This document shows positions 41,138 through 54,429 of a stretch of 59,775 bases of DNA, one piece after another (positions within the stretch are counted from its first letter, which is position 1; each line of letters begins with the position of its first letter). The stretch comes from Acidobacteriota bacterium (GTDB taxonomy: Bacteria > Acidobacteriota > Terriglobia > Terriglobales > Acidobacteriaceae). Made by a program: the position numbers and the translations under genes. The notes beneath the pieces were generated by a model that ran no database searches, was not told where the DNA came from, and saw nothing but the letters and a program-made list of their open reading frames with translations. Where the stretch lies: the NCBI GenBank assembly GCA_003225175.1, contig QIBA01000052.1:1-59775 (forward strand), in the 5' to 3' direction.

Positions 41138-41947
41138 ATGTCCACGACTATCGAATCAGCACAGAAGACCTTGATCAACTTCCGGCGGGATGCCGGCGTT
41201 GCCATTCTAGAAATGAACGATCCTCCGGCCAACACGTATACGTATGAGATGAATCGCCAGCTTGATGAGGCGATTCTGCGGGCCCGCATGGATGAGGACG
41301 TGCATGTGATTGTGCTCACGGGCGCGGGCGATAAATTCTTCTCCGCCGGCGCGAACATCAATATGCTCAGCAGCGTCGATCCGACTTATAAGTACTATTT
41401 CTGTCTGCATGCGAACGAAACGTTGCTGCGCCTGGAGAACACGCCAAAACTGGTAATCGCGGGGATTAATGGACATTGCGTTGGCGGCGGCCTTGAGATC
41501 GCTATGGCGGCGGATATTCGCATCGCGCGCAAGGATTCAGGCAAGATTGGTCTTCCCGAAGTGAACCTCGGCGTCTTGCCCGGCACAGGCGGAACACAGC
41601 GATTGTCGCGACTCGTCGGGAAATCGAAGGCAATCGAGCTGATGGCACTGGGTAAGACGTTCACTTTCGCGGAAGCGAAGGAGCTCGGAATGGTCAACGA
41701 CACTTTCGAGCGGGACAACTTCATGTCGAATGTTCTGGAGTACGCCCGCCAGTTTTGTCCTCCGAACAAGGCCGCGCTGGCTGTTGGTCGCATTAAGCGG
41801 GCGGTGCAGAGTGGGTGGGAGGTTCCGATTGAATCGGGTCTTGCACTGGAGCGCGAGAATCAGCAGCTTCTCTTCCAGAGCGACGACGCCAAGGAAGGGC
41901 TTAACGCCTACATCGAAAAGCGCTCGGCGGTCTTCACCGCGAAATGA
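41138..41947 (+). CDS. Enoyl-CoA hydratase/isomerase (crotonase family)
   Basis: 269 residues. ATG 41138 has GAGGAG upstream; the longer frame is not conserved-looking. The oxyanion-hole region is FFSAGANINML and INGHCVGGGLEIAMAADIRIA. The two catalytic Glu positions are kept (GGGLE and GLPEVNLGVLPGTGGTQRL), so it should hydrate enoyl-CoA. It is the first gene of a run with the GctB-type transferase (ATGA overlap), a second hydratase and the GctA-type transferase, so a CoA-ester catabolic role is likely; the substrate is unknown. Confidence 0.9.
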   Translation: MSTTIESAQKTLINFRRDAGVAILEMNDPPANTYTYEMNRQLDEAILRARMDEDVHVIVLTGAGDKFFSAGANINMLSSVDPTYKYYFCLHANETLLRLENTPKLVIAGINGHCVGGGLEIAMAADIRIARKDSGKIGLPEVNLGVLPGTGGTQRLSRLVGKSKAIELMALGKTFTFAEAKELGMVNDTFERDNFMSNVLEYARQFCPPNKAALAVGRIKRAVQSGWEVPIESGLALERENQQLLFQSDDAKEGLNAYIEKRSAVFTAK

Positions 41948-42696
41948 GCTCCACGCTCGGCGAGCTCATGGTTGCGGTGGCTGCGCGCGAGATCCACGAC
42001 GGCGAAGTGGTCTTCGTCGGCATGCGCCTGCCTCTGATCGCCTTTGTTGTGGCGAAGCGAACTCACGCGCCCAACTGCGTGGGACTGTTCGAAAACGGTG
42101 TGATTCGGACCAAGCCGGTGCCAGAGTTGATCTACACGATGGCGGATCCTCCCAACCTTTTAAATGCGACTCAGTGCTTAGACATGATGGGCGTTATGAG
42201 CCTGCTTCAGGCTGGTCGAGTAGACCTGGGTTTTCTTGGCGCGGCCGAAATAGATCGTTTCGGAAATCTGAATTCCACGCAGATACAAGGTAAGAACGGT
42301 ATCGTGCGTTTGCCCGGTTCGGGGGGAGCGTGCGATATCGCTTCTCTGGCCCATCGCTTTGTAGCGATGATTGACCATGAAAAGCACCGTTTGCCGGAAC
42401 GCGTCTCGTACATCACCAGTCCCGGAAACGGAAATGGAGCCGGATACCGCAAACGCGTTGGCCTGCGACGTGGTGGTCCTTCAGCAGTGATCACCACAAA
42501 AGCGGTTTTACGTTTTGGTCTGGACGGGGAGGCGTACCTGCACTCACACCATCCGGGTGTGAGCGTCGATGAAGTGGTGGCTTCAACAGGATGGAAGCTG
42601 CGCGCGGCAGATGGCGCAAGCGAAACCATGCCGCCATCCGTTGATGAATTGAAGGCAATTCGCGAGTACGACAAGCAGGCATTTTGGACGTCTTGA
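41944..42696 (+). CDS. CoA-transferase beta subunit, GctB-like
   Basis: 250 residues of the family I CoA-transferase beta type (glutaconate/3-oxoacid/IpdB). The likely active Glu is Glu50 in GLFENG; GCGG-like loops appear as LPGSGGACDIASLA. The ATGA overlap with the upstream hydratase shows coupling. The matching alpha subunit is not next to it but two genes on, after a 235-bp gap holding a palindromic repeat and another hydratase, and alpha normally comes first. The pair would move CoA between a donor such as succinyl-CoA and an organic acid. Confidence 0.85.
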   Translation: MSSTLGELMVAVAAREIHDGEVVFVGMRLPLIAFVVAKRTHAPNCVGLFENGVIRTKPVPELIYTMADPPNLLNATQCLDMMGVMSLLQAGRVDLGFLGAAEIDRFGNLNSTQIQGKNGIVRLPGSGGACDIASLAHRFVAMIDHEKHRLPERVSYITSPGNGNGAGYRKRVGLRRGGPSAVITTKAVLRFGLDGEAYLHSHHPGVSVDEVVASTGWKLRAADGASETMPPSVDELKAIREYDKQAFWTS

Positions 42697-42730
42697 GAAT
42701 CGGTGCCAGAGCACAGTGAGTCGATGGTTA

Positions 42731-42897
42731 CGTGCTTCCAGCCGCCCTCGGCCGGTACAAGGAGGGTCCGAATCATGAAGTTTGCGATTCCGGCACCTCC
42801 CTGGGAAAAAATGTCTTAAGTTCCGTATACGGTTCTCAGGTATCGGGCAGTGTCGCTCGAACAATCCTTGTACCGGCCGAGGGCGGCCGGAAGCACG
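42731..42897. repeat. Family A paired REP-like palindromes, copy 1
   Basis: Arms at 42731-42763 and 42865-42897 (33 bp each) are reverse complements with one mismatch. Each begins CGTGCTTCC or ends GGAAGCACG and carries GGCCG...CGGCC. The right arm alone can form its own hairpin (CCGGCCG-agggCGGCCGG type, seven pairs). The 101-bp interior shows no gene. It sits between gctB-like and dienoyl-CoA hydratase-like genes in what would otherwise be one operon. Confidence 0.85.
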
Positions 42898-42931
42898 TTG
42901 TTCGGCTTTCAGATGCACGAGTTCTAAACGA

Positions 42932-43705
42932 ATGAAATCCGCAGACCCATCGCGAATTCAGCTCCTCAGTGAACCCCCGTTCGCACGCCTGATCCTCGTC
43001 CATGGCAAGCAGAACGTCATCGACATTCCCATGATGGAGGAGTTCGCTCGAGCGATGGAGCATATTGAATCCCAATCTGAAATCTCTACGATCGTGATCT
43101 CCGGCTCAGGCGAGCACTTTTCCTCTGGCGTGGACATTGAATCGCACGCGCCGGACAGAGTTCAAGAGATGCTGGAGAAATTTCACGGCATAATCCGAAA
43201 GCTTGTGCGAACGCGAAGAGTGACTCTGGCCGTCGTGCGCGGCTATTGCCTCGGCGGCGGGGCAGAACTGGCAATGGCTTGTGACATCGTTGTCACCGCC
43301 GAGAGTGCGCATTGGGGATTTCCCGAGATTAAACTCGGCTGCTTCCCACCTGTTGCTGCAGCCGCTCTTGCCGCAGTTGTCGGCCAGAAGCGAGCAGCGG
43401 AGTTGGTCCTGACCGGACGTATGTTTGATGGCAGAGAGGCTGTGCAAATGGGACTTGCAAGCCGCGCCGTTCGGATGAAGTTGGATGAAGCGGTTTCTGA
43501 ATACGAGCGGCGCTTGAAGGTCCTCAGCCCGGCAGCGCTGGCGCACGCTAAGCGCGCTCTCTATTCCTGGGACGCCGCACATTTTGAAAAAGGATTGGCG
43601 CGTGCCGAGGAGATTTATCTCAAAGAACTAATTCAGACCGAAGATGCTCGGGAAGGAATTCGCGCCTGGATGGAAAAGCGCGAGGCGCAGTGGAAGGGAA
43701 AATGA
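42932..43705 (+). CDS. Crotonase-family hydratase resembling cyclohexa-1,5-dienecarbonyl-CoA hydratase (Dch/BamR)
   Basis: 257 residues. The part GEHFSSGVDIESHAPDRVQ, MLEKFHGIIRKLV, VVRGYCLGGGAELAMACDIV and WGFPEIKLGCFPPVAA follows dienoyl-CoA hydratases of benzoyl-CoA degradation more closely than general enoyl-CoA hydratases, notably the (S/F)xHxPD segment and the FPP/FAPA after LG. The active Glu positions are present. In the pathway it adds water to cyclohexa-1,5-diene-1-carbonyl-CoA. Its stop overlaps the GctA-type start (ATGA). The specificity is by recalled likeness only; generic enoyl-CoA hydratase is the alternative. Confidence 0.72.
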   Translation: MKSADPSRIQLLSEPPFARLILVHGKQNVIDIPMMEEFARAMEHIESQSEISTIVISGSGEHFSSGVDIESHAPDRVQEMLEKFHGIIRKLVRTRRVTLAVVRGYCLGGGAELAMACDIVVTAESAHWGFPEIKLGCFPPVAAAALAAVVGQKRAAELVLTGRMFDGREAVQMGLASRAVRMKLDEAVSEYERRLKVLSPAALAHAKRALYSWDAAHFEKGLARAEEIYLKELIQTEDAREGIRAWMEKREAQWKGK

Positions 43706-44619
43706 CGCCCGTGACGAAGCTCCGTTCCATGCGTGACGCCATTGCAGAATTCGTGCCCGACGGCTCATCAGTTGCCCTTGGATTGCAGCTTGAACAGATG
43801 ATCCCTTTTGCTGCCGGACATGAAATGATCCGGCAAAAGAAGCGCGACCTGCGCCTGATTGGTCCTATCTCTGACTGCCTATTCGATCAACTCATCGGCG
43901 CCGGATGCGTGAAGGACATCGTCGCCGCATGGGTAGGCAATGTCATGATGGGACAGGCCTACAACTTCCGCCACGCGGTTGAAGCAGGCGAGGTTCGCGT
44001 CTTCAACATGACGAATTTCACGATTGCGCTGGGGCTGCAAGCCGCGGCCATGGGCGTGCCTTTTCTTCCGACACGGACAGCGATGGGCAGCGATGTACCT
44101 AAAGGCAATCACTTCTTCTATCAGATTATTTCCCCTTTTGAACCTAAGGAGACACTCCTGGCAGTTCGCGCAATCGTACCGGATGTAACCATCGTCAATG
44201 TGCAACGAGCAGATGCCGAGGGCAATGCACACTGCTGGGGAAACTTCGGAGTCATGCTTGAGGCAGTGCGCGCAGCGAAGAAGGTGATTGTTGTTGCGGA
44301 AGAGATTGTCGATCCTGAAGTGATTGCAAGCGATCCGAATCGCACGGTGATTCCTGGATTTCTCGTTTCGGCCGTTGTCCACGAGCCATTCGCGGCGCAT
44401 CCCTCGCCGGTGCAGGGATATTACAGCCGCGATAATGACTTCTTTCGCGCATACCACGTCGAAACTAAGACGTCGGACGAGTTTGAACGTTGGCGTTCCA
44501 GGTGGGTTGATGGAGTGCGTGACCGCAGTGAATACTTAAGAGTGTTAGAAAGCGAGCGCGTGGATGGGTTGAAGGTCAAAAAGCATTCTTATTCGGCGCC
44601 TGCAGATTACGGATATTAA
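43702..44619 (+). CDS. CoA-transferase alpha subunit, GctA-like
   Basis: 305 residues, family I CoA-transferase alpha fold: MRDAIAEFVPDGSSVALG at the N-terminus, then GPISDCLFDQLIGAG, ALGLQAAAMGVPFLP, and NVQRADAEGNAHCWG. It pairs with the beta subunit encoded upstream at 41944. Its ATG overlaps the hydratase stop by four bases, with GGAAGGGAA just before it. The C-terminus from about 240 (YYSRDNDFFRAYHVETKT) fits the glutaconate CoA-transferase/IpdA subgroup. Confidence 0.85.
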   Translation: MTPVTKLRSMRDAIAEFVPDGSSVALGLQLEQMIPFAAGHEMIRQKKRDLRLIGPISDCLFDQLIGAGCVKDIVAAWVGNVMMGQAYNFRHAVEAGEVRVFNMTNFTIALGLQAAAMGVPFLPTRTAMGSDVPKGNHFFYQIISPFEPKETLLAVRAIVPDVTIVNVQRADAEGNAHCWGNFGVMLEAVRAAKKVIVVAEEIVDPEVIASDPNRTVIPGFLVSAVVHEPFAAHPSPVQGYYSRDNDFFRAYHVETKTSDEFERWRSRWVDGVRDRSEYLRVLESERVDGLKVKKHSYSAPADYGY

Positions 44620-44642
44620 CCAAGGAAGGGGCGAATACGAAT

Positions 44643-44713
44643 GTCACGAAGAAAGGAAAAATCGAAGGCCACGAAAAGCCCTTGTGACCTCTTGTCTCGA
44701 CTTTGTGGCCTCG
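44643..44713. repeat. Family C repeat copy 1 (GTCACGAAG / GGCCACGAA hairpin)
   Basis: Inverted, imperfect arms: GTCACGAAGaaagg with cccttGTGAC, and CGAAGGCCACGAAAAG with CTTTGTGGCCTCG. It lies in the gap between the GctA-like gene and the rhodanese. It resembles the larger element at 52989-53189. Confidence 0.6.
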
Positions 44714-44735
44714 TGCTCGCTCCCCCTTCTTACTG

Positions 44736-45056
44736 ATGGACTACGAAATCCAGCCTGAAGAAGTGAAACGCCTGCGCGATGCAGGCGAGGAGTTCACGTT
44801 TCTCGATTGCCGCGAGCCTTGGGAGTATCAGGCCGCGCACATCGACGGGACTAGACTCATTCCCATGCAGGACATTCCCATGCGTGTTCAGGAACTTGAT
44901 CCTGATGATCACATCGTCGTCATCTGCCATCGCGGGGTGCGATCGATGAACGTTACCGCGTGGCTGCGCCAGCAGGGCTTTGAAAAGGCGCAGTCGGTTG
45001 CCGGAGGCATCGATCGCTGGTCGCGAGTCGTGGATTCGAGCGTTCCGATTTATTGA
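44736..45056 (+). CDS. Single-domain rhodanese (sulfurtransferase)
   Basis: 106 residues. FLDCREPWEYQAAHIDG and the active-site loop VICHRGVRS (Cys as persulfide carrier) identify a GlpE-like rhodanese. ATG 44736 starts the conserved part; the longer frame runs into the upstream repeat. It ends 70 bp before a molybdenum hydroxylase operon. Enzymes of that family often need a sulfido ligand inserted in the cofactor, so a link is conceivable, but rhodaneses are widespread. Confidence 0.88.
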   Translation: MDYEIQPEEVKRLRDAGEEFTFLDCREPWEYQAAHIDGTRLIPMQDIPMRVQELDPDDHIVVICHRGVRSMNVTAWLRQQGFEKAQSVAGGIDRWSRVVDSSVPIY

Positions 45057-45126
45057 GAACAAATCCCGACATGTGTAGGCACGCAGAGATCCCGCAGGAA
45101 GCGAGTATGCTTAGGTAGTTTACGTA

Positions 45127-45639
45127 ATGAAAAAAGAGCTGATCGAGTTGCGGGTAAACGGCAGGTCGCGTGAGGTGGCTATTGAGCCCTCGAAGCTACT
45201 GCTGGATGCGCTGCGCGAGGACCTGCAGCTTACCGGCTCGAAGCGCGGCTGCGACGACTCGTCCTGCGGAGCGTGCACCGTCTTGATCGATGGCACTCCC
45301 ATGCTCTCCTGCACGATGATCGCCGCTTCACTATCGGCTGACGATGAAGGACGCGGGCCCGAAATCACAACCGTAGAAGGTGTCGCTGAGCATGGCGCGA
45401 TGGCCGCGATCCAAAAGGCATATGGAGACTGGGGAGGGGCGCAGTGCGGATACTGCACGCCCGGTTTCATCATGACCGTGAAGGCACTGCTCGAGCGCAA
45501 TCCCGAACCTAGCGACGAAGATATCCGCCACGCGCTGAGCGGGAACCTATGCCGTTGTACCGGCTACACGCAGATGTATCAGGCGATCAAAGCTGCGATT
45601 CGGGCTGAGCAGGAAGGAATCGCCAGCGCGGGACGGTAA
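45127..45639 (+). CDS. 2Fe-2S subunit of molybdenum hydroxylase (HcrC-like)
   Basis: 170 residues. The ferredoxin-like domain has GCDDSSCGACTVLIDG and LSC; the helical domain has CGYCTPGF and CRCTGYTQ. It carries two 2Fe-2S clusters between molybdenum and FAD subunits. It is the first of three genes in the order small, large, FAD subunit, with 8- and 43-base gaps. The small-subunit sequence alone does not separate HcrC from CO dehydrogenase or xanthine dehydrogenase types; the FAD subunit decides. Confidence 0.9.
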   Translation: MKKELIELRVNGRSREVAIEPSKLLLDALREDLQLTGSKRGCDDSSCGACTVLIDGTPMLSCTMIAASLSADDEGRGPEITTVEGVAEHGAMAAIQKAYGDWGGAQCGYCTPGFIMTVKALLERNPEPSDEDIRHALSGNLCRCTGYTQMYQAIKAAIRAEQEGIASAGR

Positions 45640-45647
45640 ATTAAGAA

Positions 45648-48203
45648 ATGTCAGAGTTCTCAGTCATCGGAAAGCCGGTAGCGCTTATCGACTCGGCCGG
45701 TAAGACCACGGGAGCAGGGAAGTACGCTGACGATCTCACCCTTCCCGGAATGCTCATCGCCAAGATTCTACACTCGCCGTATCCGCATGCAGTCATCAAG
45801 CGCATTGACGCGACTCGCGCGCTGGCTGTCGACGGCGTAGTCACAATCGTGACGGGCCATGACGCTCCCAACAAGTACGGAATTCTTCCTGTCGGGCACG
45901 ATGAAACCGCGCTTGCCGTGGACAAAGTCCGTTACGTCGGCGACAACGTGGCTTGTATCGTCGCCGAGTCGGAGTCGGTTGCCGAGCGCGCTCTCGAGCT
46001 CATCGACGCCGAATATGAGCCACTGCCGGCGTATTTCGATCCGGAAGAGTCGATGAAGGCCACTTCCGACTTCATTCATGCGGAGAAGCCGAACAACGTT
46101 GAGAAGGATTATCACCACGTCTTTGGCGACCCGGATCAAGGATTTCGCGAAGCGGCGTACATACTCGAAGATCGATATCTTGCCAATGAAGTGACACATG
46201 CGGCGATGGAGCCGCATTCCACTCTCGCAAGCTTCGAGTTCGATTCCCAAACTGGGCAACCGGGACGGCTGACCGTATGGTCGTCGACTCAGGTTCCGTA
46301 CTACCTTCAGCACAAACTTTCCATCGTCCTCGAGATGCCGATGGCGCAGATTCGCGTCATTAAGCCCCTTGTGGGCGGCGGTTTCGGCGGTAAGAGCGAG
46401 ATTATTCCGCTGGAAATTATCACCGCCGTTGCGGCTCGTAAGGCCAAAGCTCCGGTAAAGATCACCTATACGCGCGAAGAGGTTTTCTGGGCACATCGCG
46501 GAAGACCGCGAACGATCGTCGATCTCAAAACGGGAGTTAGGAAGGACGGCCGAATCACCGCCGTTGCGGCGCGAGTCATTCAGGATGGCGGCGCTTATTG
46601 CTCTTATGGAGTCGTTACAATCCTCTACTCCGGGGCGCTTCTGGGCGCTTTATACGACATTCCCAATATCCGTTACGACGGATATCGCGTGCTTACCAAC
46701 AAGCCTGCGTGCGGAGCCATGCGCGGACACGGCACAGTAAATGTTCGTTTCGCCTTCGAATCGCAACTGGATGAATTGGCCGTTGCGATCCATATGGATC
46801 CTGCAGAAATTCGTCGCGTGAACCTGCTCAAGCCGCCTTGCATCACGATCAACGGCCTTCGCGTACAGAGTTATGGGCTTCCAGAGTGCATAGATAAGGT
46901 TCTCCAAGGCTCAGAATGGGCGTCCCGAAAGGGGAAGCTTGGGCGCGGACGCGGTCTGGGAATGGGTTGCAGTCACTATGTAAGCGGTGCTGCGAACTCG
47001 ATTATTCGTTCGGATATGCCGCATTCGACGGTGAATATCAAGATTGATCGCGATGGCGGCGTGGTTGTGTACACCGGAGCATCGGATATCGGCCAGGGAT
47101 CGGACACCATGATTGCGCAAATTGTGGCCGAAGTGCTCGGATGCACCCTGGCAAGAGTGAAAGTTGTGGCGGCTGACACGGACCTCACTCCGGTCGATAT
47201 CGGCTCTTATTCGAGCCGTGTGACGTTCATGAACGGCAATGCTGCGAAGCGTGCTGCGGAAGAAGTGAAGCAAAAAATCGTCACTGCGGCCGCGCGCAAG
47301 ATGGCTTGTGCGCCGGAAAAAATCGCGATGCGCGATGATTTGGTAACCAAGAGCGGCGCGGCTTTGGTGCTTCCGGACACCGCAGCCAGCGTCTCCGGAC
47401 GTGTCGAAGGGCAGATTCTGCGGCATTCTGTGCAGCAAAAGCGCAAGGATGAAGGTCCAAAAGACCAGATGTCGTTCGAAGAAGCGGTCGTTGCGGCTAT
47501 CGATTTCAGCGCTGCGCTGACCGGAACCGGATCTTACGCGCCCCCTGCAGAGGCTCGTGGAGGCAAACATAAAGGCGCTGGAGTCGGTCCTTCGCCTGCT
47601 TATTCGTACTCTGCGCAGGTTGCCGAGATCAGTGTGGACGAGGAAACGGGTGTCGTTACCGTCCATAAGATCTGGGCTGCGCACGATTGTGGGCGCGCTT
47701 TAAACCCTGTAAGCGTCGAAGGACAGGTTATTGGCTCCGTTTGGATGGGTTTAGGGCAGGCATTACAGGAGGAAATGGTCTGGAAGGATGGCCTATTAAT
47801 GAACCCTGGACTGCTCGAATACAAGTCTCCGTCGGCGGTTGAATCGCCTGAAATCATCACTTATATCGTCGAAAGCATTGATCCCGAAGGCCCTTTCGGC
47901 GCCAAAGAAGCGTCGGAAGGATCGCTCGCGGCGTGCATTCCCGCCATTTCCAACGCTATTTTCGACGCGATCGGAGTGCGTTTAAGGGAAGCTCCGTTCA
48001 CTCCAGACCGCGTTTTAGCGGCAATTAAGGCGCGTAATGAGGCACAAAAAGCAGCTTTCCGCGGCTCGAATGAGGCCTCAAAACCCACACAATTCCGCGA
48101 ACACGGTGGCAGTTTATGGTTTAAGGGGCGCGGTCCGATGCGCCATCCGGCGGATCCGGCACGGGCGGGAGCTACCAACGAACCGGATGCGGGAGACGAT
48201 TGA
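45648..48203 (+). CDS. Molybdopterin subunit of molybdenum hydroxylase (HcrA-like)
   Basis: 851 residues. Family blocks: GAGKYADDLTLPGMLIAKIL near the N-terminus, VTHAAMEPHST, KPLVGGGFGGKSE, AYCSYG, CGAMRGHGTVNVRFAFE (cofactor contact) and GAKEASEG, with Glu757 the likely base at molybdenum. It is longer than typical relatives because of an insertion near 600-640 and a polar tail after about 805 (PTQFREHGGSLWFKGRGPM...). With its FAD partner it is best read as a 4-hydroxybenzoyl-CoA reductase-type enzyme, but other CoA-ester or heterocycle substrates remain possible. Confidence 0.85.
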   Translation: MSEFSVIGKPVALIDSAGKTTGAGKYADDLTLPGMLIAKILHSPYPHAVIKRIDATRALAVDGVVTIVTGHDAPNKYGILPVGHDETALAVDKVRYVGDNVACIVAESESVAERALELIDAEYEPLPAYFDPEESMKATSDFIHAEKPNNVEKDYHHVFGDPDQGFREAAYILEDRYLANEVTHAAMEPHSTLASFEFDSQTGQPGRLTVWSSTQVPYYLQHKLSIVLEMPMAQIRVIKPLVGGGFGGKSEIIPLEIITAVAARKAKAPVKITYTREEVFWAHRGRPRTIVDLKTGVRKDGRITAVAARVIQDGGAYCSYGVVTILYSGALLGALYDIPNIRYDGYRVLTNKPACGAMRGHGTVNVRFAFESQLDELAVAIHMDPAEIRRVNLLKPPCITINGLRVQSYGLPECIDKVLQGSEWASRKGKLGRGRGLGMGCSHYVSGAANSIIRSDMPHSTVNIKIDRDGGVVVYTGASDIGQGSDTMIAQIVAEVLGCTLARVKVVAADTDLTPVDIGSYSSRVTFMNGNAAKRAAEEVKQKIVTAAARKMACAPEKIAMRDDLVTKSGAALVLPDTAASVSGRVEGQILRHSVQQKRKDEGPKDQMSFEEAVVAAIDFSAALTGTGSYAPPAEARGGKHKGAGVGPSPAYSYSAQVAEISVDEETGVVTVHKIWAAHDCGRALNPVSVEGQVIGSVWMGLGQALQEEMVWKDGLLMNPGLLEYKSPSAVESPEIITYIVESIDPEGPFGAKEASEGSLAACIPAISNAIFDAIGVRLREAPFTPDRVLAAIKARNEAQKAAFRGSNEASKPTQFREHGGSLWFKGRGPMRHPADPARAGATNEPDAGDD

Positions 48204-48246
48204 TGTCATTCCTACTCCAGATAATGGTATCTGACGAGATGCATCC

Positions 48247-49257
48247 TTGAGCCTTCCGCCATTCAAACTCCTACGCCCACGCTCGATTGAAGACGCCGTC
48301 GGCTACCTTGCTCAACACACGCCCGACATCCAGATTATCGCCGGCGGGACCGACCTGCTGCCATCGATGAAGCAGCGGTTGTTTACGCCGAAGTATCTCC
48401 TCGACATCCGTGGCATTGAAGAACTGAGGAGTATCCGTTCCATTTCGGGATACGGCACCGAGATCGGTGCGCTGGTGACGCTCAGCACGATCGAGGATTC
48501 GGAGTTCATTCGACGCAGTTATCCCGTATTGCGCGAGGCGGTGGCGACGGTGGCATCGCCGATCCTGCGCAATATGGGTACGATCGGCGGCAATATCTGT
48601 CTGGACACGCGCTGCCTTTGGTATAACCAGTCGCTCACCTGGCGAAAGTCCTGCGGCTTCTGCATAAAGAAGGATGGCGATCTCTGCCATGTGGCGCCCG
48701 GGGGGAAGAAATGCTGGGCAGCCTTTTCCGCGGATTCTCCCGCCGCGCTGCTCTGTCTTGAAGCAGAGTTAGAGATCGCTGGAGCAACGGGCAATCGCCG
48801 CCTTCCTCTGGCCGAGTTCTACACCAACATCGGCGATGCGCGCGTTAAGCTCGCAAAGAACGAGATGGTAACGCGCGTCTTTTTGCCGGAACGGATGGCT
48901 GGATACGAAGGTGTCTATCAAAAGCTGCGCCTGCGAGGATCGATCGATTATCCGCTCGCCGGAGTCGCAGCGGCACTGAAGAAAAACGCTCAAGGCATCA
49001 TTGCCGATGCGCGCATGGCGATTACAGGAGTGAACCCAGCGCCACTGCTGGTGAAGGAAGCGAGCCACGCGCTGGCTGGCAAGGCACTCAACGAACACGC
49101 GGCAGCCGTGGTCGGCGAGTTGGCGGCAAAAATGGCCAAGCCTCTCACCACATCGCTGCTTACTCCGGAATATCGTCGCGAGATGATTCGAGTATTCGCT
49201 AAGCGTGCCGTGCTGGCGGCGGCAGGCATGGGCAACGGTGCGACCCGGCAGATGTAG
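48247..49257 (+). CDS. FAD subunit with extra [4Fe-4S] insertion (HcrB-like)
   Basis: 336 residues. The FAD motifs IIAGGTDLLP and MGTIGGNICLDTRC are present. Between the second FAD motif and the rest lies an insertion with cysteines at 123, 139, 147 and 156 (LDTRC, GFC, DLC, KKC) in a WYNQS...WRKS...CHVAPGG context. That is the hallmark of the HcrB subunit, which holds a fourth iron-sulfur cluster so that electrons can run from ferredoxin to molybdenum in reverse. The start is TTG 48247; no other start fits before the conserved PFKLLRP. It completes the small-large-FAD operon. Confidence 0.87.
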   Translation: MSLPPFKLLRPRSIEDAVGYLAQHTPDIQIIAGGTDLLPSMKQRLFTPKYLLDIRGIEELRSIRSISGYGTEIGALVTLSTIEDSEFIRRSYPVLREAVATVASPILRNMGTIGGNICLDTRCLWYNQSLTWRKSCGFCIKKDGDLCHVAPGGKKCWAAFSADSPAALLCLEAELEIAGATGNRRLPLAEFYTNIGDARVKLAKNEMVTRVFLPERMAGYEGVYQKLRLRGSIDYPLAGVAAALKKNAQGIIADARMAITGVNPAPLLVKEASHALAGKALNEHAAAVVGELAAKMAKPLTTSLLTPEYRREMIRVFAKRAVLAAAGMGNGATRQM

Positions 49258-52112: not shown

Positions 52113-52145
52113 GTCGTTGCTCGATGAATGGATTCCTTAACTTTC

Positions 52146-52988
52146 ATGATCACCGACTGCCACGTTCACATTCAGCCTATTGATATGTTCAAGCCGGCGG
52201 CACTGGCTGTGATGAAGAAGAAGCGGGCTAATTTTGACGAGATCGTTGAGTTCTGTCGCTCTCCTAAGAAATTCCTTCATCACCTTGACCAGATCGGCGT
52301 CGATCGTGCAGTGCTCATCAACTATGTGGCTCCCGACCTGATGGGCTTCACATCTGGGGTCAATGAGTTCGTCGCCAATTACGTGAAAGAGAATCCGAAG
52401 CGCTTGATTCCTTGCGGCAGCGTTCATCCACGACACACGGCAAATGTCGAAGGCGACATGGAGCAGATCGTGCGCTTGGGGATACGCATGATCAAAGTGC
52501 ATCCGCCGCATCAGTTGCTTTATCCGAACGACTATCTAAATGGCATGAAAGAGTTGGAGACCGTCTATCGCGTCGCTGAGCAGAGCGGTATTCCTGTAAT
52601 GGTCCATACGGGAACCTCAATTTTCCCCGGTGCCCGAAACAAGTATGGCGATCCTATCTATGTGGACGATGTGGCGGTTGATTTTCCTAAATTGAAAATT
52701 ATTTTGGCGCATGGCGGGCGGCCTTTGTGGATGGAAACGGCGTTCTTTCTGGTCAGACGGCATCCGAATGTCTACCTGGACATCAGCGGAATTCCTCCAA
52801 AGACGTTGCTGAAGTATTTTCCCCGGCTGCAGGAGATTGCGGACAAAACGCTGTTCGGTACGGATTGGCCGGGTCCTGGGGTGCCCGAGATCAAGCAGAA
52901 CCTGGAGGATTTTCGCAGTCTGCCTATAACCGATGCAGCGAAGCAGCAGATTCTGGGTAAGACGGCATTGTCGATCTGGCCCAGTTAG
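52146..52988 (+). CDS. Amidohydrolase family 2 metal-dependent hydrolase/decarboxylase
   Basis: 280 residues, TIM barrel. The metal-binding TDCHVHI is at the N-terminus, then IKVHPPHQ, MVHTGTS, ILAHGGRPLWMETAFFLVRRHPNVYLDISG and a final FGTDWPG with the catalytic Asp. This is the ACMSD/2,3-dihydroxybenzoate decarboxylase-like group, which handles aromatic or dicarboxylic acids. ATG 52146 begins the conserved part; ATG 52128 is also possible. It follows a nucleotidyltransferase remnant. A link with the aromatic CoA genes nearby is possible but not shown. Confidence 0.85.
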   Translation: MITDCHVHIQPIDMFKPAALAVMKKKRANFDEIVEFCRSPKKFLHHLDQIGVDRAVLINYVAPDLMGFTSGVNEFVANYVKENPKRLIPCGSVHPRHTANVEGDMEQIVRLGIRMIKVHPPHQLLYPNDYLNGMKELETVYRVAEQSGIPVMVHTGTSIFPGARNKYGDPIYVDDVAVDFPKLKIILAHGGRPLWMETAFFLVRRHPNVYLDISGIPPKTLLKYFPRLQEIADKTLFGTDWPGPGVPEIKQNLEDFRSLPITDAAKQQILGKTALSIWPS

Positions 52989-53189: not shown

Positions 53190-53295
53190 CGCCCTAAAAG
53201 GTTTTCGGATATAACAGAGGGTTGCTCTCTGCGCGATGCGGCTCACTGTGGTCGCGTGCTTGCTTTGGGTCAAATCGAGAGCGTTCGAGGTCTCA
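53190..53295 (+). other. Leader before citrate synthase; with the repeat, a gene-free gap of 307 bp
   Basis: The gap between the amidohydrolase and citrate synthase genes is filled by the family C element and this short leader. The citrate synthase frame is open through part of it (from 53236) but that stretch has no conserved sequence. I see no clear promoter. Confidence 0.45.
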
Positions 53296-54429
53296 ATGTC
53301 GACAACGCCCGCCACAAAAGGTCTTGAAGGAATCGTCGCCGCTAATTCTGGAATCTGCTATATCGATGGTGACGAAGGCGTTCTTGCTTATCGTGGCATC
53401 GACATCCACGAACTCGCCCAGAACTCCAACTTTGAAGAAGTCTGCTACTTGTTGTGGTTCGGAACACTTCCTAAACGAGAGGAACTGGAGCACTTCCGGC
53501 AACGGCTGGCGGAGTCGCGCAAGGTCGATCCTGGCATCATCGAGATGATGCGGAGCTTCCCGAAGAGCGCCACGCCGATGGAGGTTCTGCGCACCACGGT
53601 TTCCGCGTTGTCTTTCTACGATCCCGATGAGAAAGCGGTCGATCACGATTCGAACGTGCGCAAGGCATACGCACTCACATCGCAGATCGCGATGATCGTT
53701 GCCATTTACGATCGAATCCGAAAAGGGAAGAAGGTGGTGGATGCCGATCCGAAGCTTTCGCATGCCGCTAATTTTCTGCTGCAGCTCACCGGCGAGAAGC
53801 CTTCTGCGACCGCAGAAAAAGCCCTCGACATCGCCCTCATCCTTCATGCCGACCACGAACTGAATGCATCCACATTCGCTGCTCGCGTGACTGCTGCGAC
53901 TTTGTCAGACATGCATTCGGCGATCACCAGCGCCATCGGCGCGTTGAAGGGGCCCTTGCACGGTGGAGCCAACGAGGCGGTCATGCGCATGCTGTTCGCG
54001 CTGGACAAAGCCGGGAGGGACCCAGTGGAACATGTGACGGGCATGCTGGCGGACAAGAAGAAAGTCCCTGGCTTCGGGCATCGCGTCTACACCACGGAAG
54101 ACCCCCGTGCCACGCACCTGCGCAAGATGTCTGAGGATCTGGGACGCTCCAGCGGCAATCCCAAGTGGTTCGACATGTCGCGTAAGATCGAGAAGTACAT
54201 CAACGCCGAGAAGAAGCTGAACGCCAACGTGGACTTCTACTCGGCGTCGACTTATACGACTTTGGGACTCGACGTCGATCTCTTCACTCCTGTCTTCGCT
54301 GTCTCCCGTATTGCAGGCTGGGCGGCGCACGTCATCGAGCAACTCGACGACAACCGATTGATTCGGCCTCGCGCGGAGTACATTGGGCCGCGGTACCCGA
54401 ATAAATACGTGCCGATGGATAGACGATAG
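53296..54429 (+). CDS. gltA: Citrate synthase
   Basis: 377 residues, the shorter citrate synthase / 2-methylcitrate synthase form without the extra N-terminal beta domain of E. coli GltA. Active-site blocks: LILHADHELNASTFAAR (His), GALKGPLHGGANEAVMRML (His) and VPGFGHRVYTTEDPRATHL. The catalytic Asp lies in VDFYSAS. ATG 53296 has GAGG six bases upstream. It condenses acetyl-CoA with oxaloacetate; 2-methylcitrate activity cannot be ruled out, but no prpB or prpD is near. A hairpin follows the stop. Confidence 0.92.
   Translation: MSTTPATKGLEGIVAANSGICYIDGDEGVLAYRGIDIHELAQNSNFEEVCYLLWFGTLPKREELEHFRQRLAESRKVDPGIIEMMRSFPKSATPMEVLRTTVSALSFYDPDEKAVDHDSNVRKAYALTSQIAMIVAIYDRIRKGKKVVDADPKLSHAANFLLQLTGEKPSATAEKALDIALILHADHELNASTFAARVTAATLSDMHSAITSAIGALKGPLHGGANEAVMRMLFALDKAGRDPVEHVTGMLADKKKVPGFGHRVYTTEDPRATHLRKMSEDLGRSSGNPKWFDMSRKIEKYINAEKKLNANVDFYSASTYTTLGLDVDLFTPVFAVSRIAGWAAHVIEQLDDNRLIRPRAEYIGPRYPNKYVPMDRR

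Follow-up and report, generated by a model that had tools for sequence, protein, structure and literature searches.

An eight-gene block in an acidobacterial genome encodes a molybdenum enzyme of the 4-hydroxybenzoyl-coenzyme A (CoA) reductase type (herein HcrABC), and the same genome carries the genes of the O2-dependent box enzymes BoxB and BoxC on another contig. We propose, with a probability of about 70%, that these enzymes act in series: HcrABC would make benzoyl-CoA, which canonical BoxB would epoxidize with O2 and BoxC would open, as judged from their families. The block occupies positions 41138 through 49257 of the window, a stretch of 59,775 nucleotides (contig QIBA01000052.1, assembly GCA_003225175.1; Acidobacteriota, family Acidobacteriaceae). 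Enzymes that dehydroxylate 4-hydroxybenzoyl-CoA are known mainly from oxygen-free metabolism, and little is known of how Acidobacteria, which are common in soil and peat, handle plant phenolics; the module suggests how soil acidobacteria break these compounds down. If the proposal is true, a reductive, low-potential enzyme prepares 4-hydroxybenzoate for O2-dependent attack in an organism in whose genome no benzoyl-CoA reductase (BCR) was found, and such genomes would be misjudged in gene surveys that infer anaerobic aromatic degradation from hcrA.

All eight genes (ECH1, GctB, ECH2, GctA, rhodanese, HcrC, HcrA, and HcrB; Table 1) are intact and lie closely packed on the plus strand, with 4-bp overlaps at ECH1/GctB and at ECH2/GctA; the start codon of HcrB, TTG, is uncertain. 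An initial reading of the letters alone (herein the sequence-only reading) had described a one-strand block of a molybdenum hydroxylase, two crotonases, and GctA/GctB within about 8 kb, a description with which Pfam and NCBIfam agree; the rhodanese at 44736 through 45056 was absent from its gene list. It had also proposed a comparison of gene order across other Acidobacteriota. Dozens of acidobacterial genomes show the same order or variants of it, and the block is therefore not a chance association. The conserved neighborhood runs past 49257: Amidohydro_2 and citrate synthase genes recur downstream in relatives, the former frequently directly downstream of HcrB; the tie of the citrate synthase gene to the module is uncertain.

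The top NCBIfam model for each of HcrA, HcrB, and HcrC is the 4-hydroxybenzoyl-CoA reductase model for that subunit, and for HcrA the score is 991 bits compared with 557 bits for the second-best model. For HcrA and HcrB, the two subunits searched, the best Protein Data Bank (PDB) match is Thauera aromatica HcrABC (PDB: 1rm6), with which the window enzyme has in common the three xanthine oxidase-family subunits and a four-cysteine loop in the FAD subunit. Cys123, Cys139, Cys147, and Cys156 align with the four cysteines of 1rm6_B and are kept in 91, 91, 89, and 91 of 92 rows, respectively, of an alignment that includes distant paralogs. Unlike the Thauera enzyme, the window HcrA has ∼30 additional residues between two aligned stretches and ∼50 more at the C terminus; HcrB is ∼38% identical to its counterpart, and the acidobacterial hcr genes in relatives keep company with BoxB-type enzymes. 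The sequence-only reading had taken the four-cysteine insertion of the FAD subunit as the mark of 4-hydroxybenzoyl-CoA reductase. The loop is present and aligned with Thauera, but it does not single out this clade: locus L050 has a similar loop, and the distant L053 a resembling Cys-rich loop with different spacing (L denotes a locus and G a genome, G000 being that of the window). As a sole diagnosis the loop was therefore rejected. A similar cluster is presumably present in Escherichia coli PaoB. The passages of PMC3958847 consulted do not show it. A plasmid-collection search with HcrA returned only matches of 34 to 36%. Taken with its association with benzoyl-CoA-consuming enzymes, described below, family membership indicates that the molybdenum enzyme is of the 4-hydroxybenzoyl-CoA reductase type and probably removes the hydroxyl group of 4-hydroxybenzoyl-CoA. 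The broader claim of the sequence-only reading, an acidobacterial module for aromatic acids that combines such an enzyme with a class I CoA-transferase, is supported.

That reading had cautioned that the route could be a different one, and the rest of the genome bears this out. Contig G000:C56 (L069) encodes BoxC (894 bits; cut-off 712), BoxB (858 bits; cut-off 499), and a regulator that contains a shikimate-kinase domain (NF006015, 384 bits; cut-off 204), here named BoxR-like. The BCR for which a genome search had been suggested was not found: the genome, which is 98.92% complete in 268 contigs and not closed, gave no match at E 1e-5 to PF06050 (HGD-D, BcrB/BcrC) or PF02730 (AFOR_N, BamB), and no Oah match reached the cut-off of 464 bits; Had was not searched for. 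Five weaker Oah matches (35 to 91 bits), ECH1 among them, are of a kind also present in 11 of 14 control genomes. At E 1e-20 none of 21 genomes gave a PobA match, and the oxidative route by which 4-hydroxybenzoate is usually degraded was therefore not seen. Canonical BoxC is present in all five long-BoxB genomes of these 21 and in none of the other 16. Compared with the box pathway (BoxA, BoxB, BoxC, and BoxD) of Azoarcus/Aromatoleum evansii, the own genome has BoxB, BoxC, and the BoxR-like regulator over cut-offs, whereas BoxA was found in none of the 21 acidobacterial genomes and 10 of the 21 carry a short BoxB (∼391 residues) and no BoxC. A BoxB of Mycetohabitans from the plasmid collection (37 to 38% match) was not used.

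The association of HcrABC with ring-attack enzymes was assessed in the best 80 of 146 loci found with patterns from the window HcrA, all from Acidobacteriota by record title; as the patterns came from the module's own HcrA, the sample consists of near kin. Short BoxB accompanies HcrA in 46 loci, canonical BoxB in 4 (L082, L106, L125, and L136), and BCR in 3; the remaining 27, many of them short contigs, have none of the three in the locus. Among the 47 loci in which 8 kb or more of sequence lies upstream of HcrA (herein long-flanked) the corresponding numbers are 33, 2, 3, and 9. L106 and L136 carry HcrCAB in tandem with box genes (BoxR-like-BoxC-BoxB-HcrC-HcrA-HcrB), with 32 bases separating the match ends of BoxB and HcrC; HcrCAB lies beside BoxB in L082 and is divergent from BoxB/BoxC in L125. 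The BoxB of L106, the canonical-BoxB locus tested, is over the curated cut-off. Of the 30 loci that lack BoxB in the locus, 29 (all but L141) were followed to the genome level, as was L082; BoxB was found in 27 of the 30 genomes searched and not in those of L093, L101, and L116. In all, 76 of 79 examined HcrA loci lie in BoxB-bearing genomes; for comparison, 123 of 399 genomes sampled from the class have BoxB. Similarly, among 21 relatives BoxB is found in all 13 whose HcrB match reaches E 1e-90 and in 2 of the 8 others (Fisher p 0.0005); loosening the HcrB limit to E 1e-20, which admits paralogs of 31 to 37% identity, gives 14/16 and 1/5.

In the three BCR loci (L118, L121, and L129), BcrC-BcrB lie on the same strand ∼5.6 kb upstream of HcrC. 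In L118, the one tested, BcrC (528 bits) and BcrB (698 bits) are over their cut-offs and a Dch-like crotonase (240 bits) is under. HGD-D matches occur in 5 of the 21 genomes searched. An anaerobic route exists in some relatives and was not found in the own genome. A quick tree of 92 HcrA rows with SH-aLRT support has Thauera as its sole tested member, and the places of Thauera and L050, on long branches, are unsure. In this tree the short-BoxB group encloses the three BCR loci, and one clade of 17 (SH-aLRT 98) holds the window and the four canonical-BoxB loci. When loci without a ring-attack gene are left uncounted, three changes among the three systems are enough; 20 are needed if these loci form a fourth state. 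Across the loci HcrABC stays constant while the ring-attack system is exchanged.

Several relatives of the same family have an aldehyde dehydrogenase gene and a 391-residue BoxB-like gene inserted between ECH1 and GctB (or ECH2); 21 of the 33 long-flanked short-BoxB loci have this aldehyde dehydrogenase. The one short BoxB tested is under the TIGR03225 cut-off (243 bits; cut-off 499). Its best solved sequence match is BoxB (PDB: 3per; E 3.6e-53), and all 11 fold-search matches at E ≤ 0.001 are BoxB. In an alignment of 56 rows, some of them duplicates, all six diiron ligands are kept in every covering row (54 or 56 of 56), as are Gln116, Thr119, Ser123, and Phe193 near the substrate (residue roles as given in the portions of PMC5489048 consulted). 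Short and long BoxB are mutually exclusive in 15 of 15 BoxB-bearing relatives; strict exclusion was rejected, as G039, the genome of L097, has both. In most relatives, then, the epoxidase would be this short diiron protein from the same module, often encoded next to the aldehyde dehydrogenase, with no BoxC found. ECH2, present in 33/33 long-flanked short-BoxB loci, is a candidate hydratase of the cyclic dienoyl-CoA epoxide in such BoxC-less modules. A tentative extension, which we hold at somewhat below even odds, is a distinct route in which HcrABC feeds a short-BoxB subfamily that is reduced without BoxA, perhaps by the same ferredoxin that feeds HcrABC; Dch-like ECH2 and ECH1 would act in turn on the cyclic dienoyl-CoA epoxide to open the ring without BoxC, the aldehyde dehydrogenase would replace BoxD, and the window lineage would have retained the module while exchanging short BoxB for canonical BoxCB.

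Glu120 and Glu141 of ECH1, which we take to be the catalytic Glu positions of crotonases, are kept in 49/49 rows, and both are kept in 75/75 rows of ECH2. ECH2 is the gene that the sequence-only reading had called Dch/BamR-like; its best model is that of Dch (TIGR03189), but at 155 bits against a cut-off of 292.5 the identification as Dch is not supported. No match to ECH2 was found in the plasmid collection at E 1e-25. For both CoA-transferase subunits the best PDB match is glutaconate CoA-transferase GctAB of Acidaminococcus (PDB: 1poi), from which the window differs in that the genes are interleaved with a crotonase gene (GctB-ECH2-GctA). Glu50 of GctB, presumably the catalytic Glu of Gct-type class I CoA-transferases, lies in an FENG motif and aligns with the Glu of the ESG motif in 1poi_B; of 29 rows, 28 read FENG and one YENG, the Glu being kept in 29/29. 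GctAB are paired in 20 of the 47 long-flanked loci and never single there. IpdAB and EchA20 of steroid degradation likewise pair a Gct-fold protein with a crotonase. A C–C hydrolase function of the IpdAB kind was rejected because 1poi matches far better than 6co6/6con (which we take to be IpdAB) and GctB keeps the 1poi_B Glu. GctAB probably makes or exchanges the CoA ester of the aromatic compound (or of a ring product), and ECH1, ECH2, and the amidohydrolase would process a side chain or the opened ring. The nearest fold to the amidohydrolase is the uncharacterized 3irs, followed by LigJ, pyrone-dicarboxylate hydrolase, and ACMSD, enzymes of aromatic ring-cleavage products. The rhodanese, present in 29 of the 47 long-flanked loci, perhaps supplies sulfur for the molybdenum cofactor.

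A phenylpropanoid start would give GctAB and the crotonases other roles and is otherwise compatible with the serial action of HcrABC and BoxB. GctAB would make the CoA ester of 4-coumarate or 4-hydroxyphenylpropanoate, and ECH1/ECH2 would aid β-oxidation of the side chain to 4-hydroxybenzoyl-CoA, the substrate of HcrABC and then BoxB. The two Glu kept in both crotonases are consistent with this, as is the persistence of ECH1, ECH2, and GctAB in the window, G001, and G004 despite BoxC; thiolase and hydroxyacyl-CoA dehydrogenase are, however, absent from the block, and GctAB are absent from 16 of the 33 long-flanked short-BoxB loci. We hold this start to be the less probable assignment. Less credible still is an oxidative hydroxylase, rather than a dehydroxylase, acting on another CoA ester or an N-heterocycle. 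Xanthine oxidase-family enzymes mostly hydroxylate, the O2-dependent partners would suit an oxidative enzyme, and BoxA was not found in the 21 genomes, but the margin of the HcrA score over the next model and the retained four-cysteine loop argue against it, as does the link of HcrCAB to BCR in some relatives, where a supply of benzoyl-CoA makes sense. The least probable alternative is the anaerobic pathway, with HcrABC feeding BCR and ECH2 acting as Dch on the dienoyl-CoA product: in three relatives BCR and a Dch-like crotonase are encoded near HcrCAB, TIGR03189 is the best model of ECH2, and the own genome is not closed, yet that nearly complete genome shows neither HGD-D nor AFOR_N proteins, nor an Oah above its cut-off, ECH2 scores well below the BCR-linked L118 homolog, and its presence in every long-flanked short-BoxB locus indicates that it is not tied to BCR.

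Several observations count against the HcrABC-to-BoxB proposal itself. The window HcrA, HcrB, and HcrC all fall under the curated cut-offs, which are NCBI equivalog naming thresholds rather than biochemical criteria, HcrA being short by 3.6 bits; we therefore speak of an HcrABC-type enzyme rather than a proven member. (Among orthologs tested, 4/4 HcrA, at 1005 to 1042 bits, and 0/2 HcrB are over.) The box genes of the own genome are on a contig other than the window, no ring-attack gene accompanies HcrA in 9 of the 47 long-flanked loci, 3 of the 79 genomes have no BoxB match, and the co-occurrence statistics ignore kinship. Box genes do not need HcrABC: G002 has BoxCB and no HcrB orthologue, and G016 (L074, G016:C7) has TetR-ECH1-aldehyde dehydrogenase-short BoxB-ECH2 with no HcrB orthologue in the genome, so that the box part of the module can exist by itself. 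In the short BoxB, pocket residue Phe206 is Tyr in 55/56 rows and Thr210 is Val or Ile in 56/56, both being kept in all nine long BoxB rows; these two consistent changes suggest that its substrate may differ. The structure model of the short BoxB is of modest confidence (mean pLDDT 64) and was used as support only.

Activation and electron supply pose further difficulties. No benzoate-CoA ligase over the cut-off was found in the own genome (best match 341 of 375 bits), so GctAB may activate 4-hydroxybenzoate or a phenylpropanoid; GctAB as the activating enzyme is a guess. The best ligase match was itself rejected for this role, since it lies on G000:C30 near a match to a bifunctional salicylyl-CoA 5-hydroxylase/oxidoreductase and probably serves another substrate. 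Complementarity of ligase and GctAB across relatives was also rejected, as G008, G009, and G012 carry both. BoxA (TIGR03224) was found in 0/21 genomes at E 1e-20; the search also yielded no match over the cut-off in any of 14 control genomes, and its sensitivity is therefore unproven. Reduced ferredoxin shared by HcrABC and BoxB is a possible electron donor. Finally, 4-hydroxybenzoyl-CoA reductase is O2 sensitive and an awkward partner for an oxygenase, and the module, if read correctly, raises the testable question of how such a reductase can operate in the same cell as an epoxidase, drawing on a common electron donor in the absence of BoxA.

The principle that dehydroxylation feeds the box pathway is already known, having been proposed for Aromatoleum aromaticum EbN1: the sections of PMC9765128 consulted place a presumptive reductive dehydroxylation to benzoyl-CoA in both aerobic and anaerobic degradation and the box pathway in the aerobic section. 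That network also includes BCR, whereas the dedicated module described here belongs to an acidobacterium in which BCR was not detected. A survey of benzoate-CoA ligase neighborhoods (PMC10803450) describes, in the portions consulted, hybrid gene contexts that combine Box and BCR; we found no word beginning with acidobacteri or hydroxybenzoyl in its main text. The module in Acidobacteriota, the HcrCAB-box tandem, and the short BoxB form were not met among the titles and abstract openings of open-license papers listed, which does not show their absence from print. Relative to the literature searched, the new elements are an acidobacterial module without BCR, exchangeable ring-attack systems, a short BoxB without BoxC, and the lack of a detectable BoxA.

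Table 1. Genes of the block and of its conserved downstream neighborhood in the window
Feature	Position	Strand	Support
ECH1, crotonase (enoyl-CoA hydratase type), first gene of conserved module	41138..41947	+	PF00378 185 bits
GctB-like class I CoA-transferase subunit	41944..42696	+	best PDB match 1poi_B, E 5.3e-33
ECH2, crotonase nearest Dch but under cut-off	42932..43705	+	TIGR03189 155 bits, cut-off 292.5
GctA-like class I CoA-transferase subunit	43702..44619	+	best PDB match 1poi_A, E 4.6e-45
Rhodanese, single-domain	44736..45056	+	PF00581 68 bits
HcrC-like [2Fe-2S] subunit	45127..45639	+	TIGR03193 178.6 bits, cut-off 257.8
HcrA-like molybdopterin subunit	45648..48203	+	TIGR03194 991 bits, cut-off 994.55; 1rm6_A, E 6.8e-228
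HcrB-like FAD subunit, four-cysteine loop	48247..49257	+	TIGR03195 322.6 bits, cut-off 404.55; 1rm6_B, E 2.9e-64
Amidohydro_2 protein (amidohydrolase superfamily)	52128..52988	+	PF04909 124 bits; syntenic in relatives
Citrate/2-methylcitrate synthase	53236..54429	+	TIGR01800 497 bits, cut-off 421; syntenic in part of loci

Variation of the module among relatives takes several forms. G005 splits the enzyme genes, with HcrB and the amidohydrolase in L036 and rhodanese-HcrC-HcrA on another contig (L080, apparently of the same genome), and in G003 (L037) HcrB has no HcrA or HcrC match within ∼9 kb. A DUF3291 protein is encoded between HcrB and the amidohydrolase in L113 (6421 through 6924), with related open reading frames in six loci. 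In G004 (L034, 3517 through 4110, minus strand) a 197-residue open reading frame lies on the opposite strand between ECH2 and GctA, the genes that overlap in the window. In the three BCR loci (at ∼0.1 to 13.6 kb), activase-, SDR-, TPR-, and HMGL-like genes lie between the BCR genes and HcrCAB. The 12.9-kb contig G019:C27 (L049) carries a BCR-like B/C pair, an activase, a Dch-like crotonase, a BadH-like SDR, an amidohydrolase, a thiolase, and a short BoxB-like gene, putting genes of aerobic and of anaerobic ring attack together on a single contig.

A second CoA-dependent aromatic route is predicted in the own genome from L176 (G000:C30, 3684 through 9988), where the match to the bifunctional salicylyl-CoA 5-hydroxylase/oxidoreductase is over its cut-off (1239 bits) and a CoA ligase is encoded nearby; the protein is presumably of the anthraniloyl-CoA monooxygenase type. 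Directly upstream of the block in the window lies a ferritin-like gene (40359 through 40976, minus strand), homologs of which are also found near TetR and BoxB-module genes in G005 (L073) and G006 (L072).

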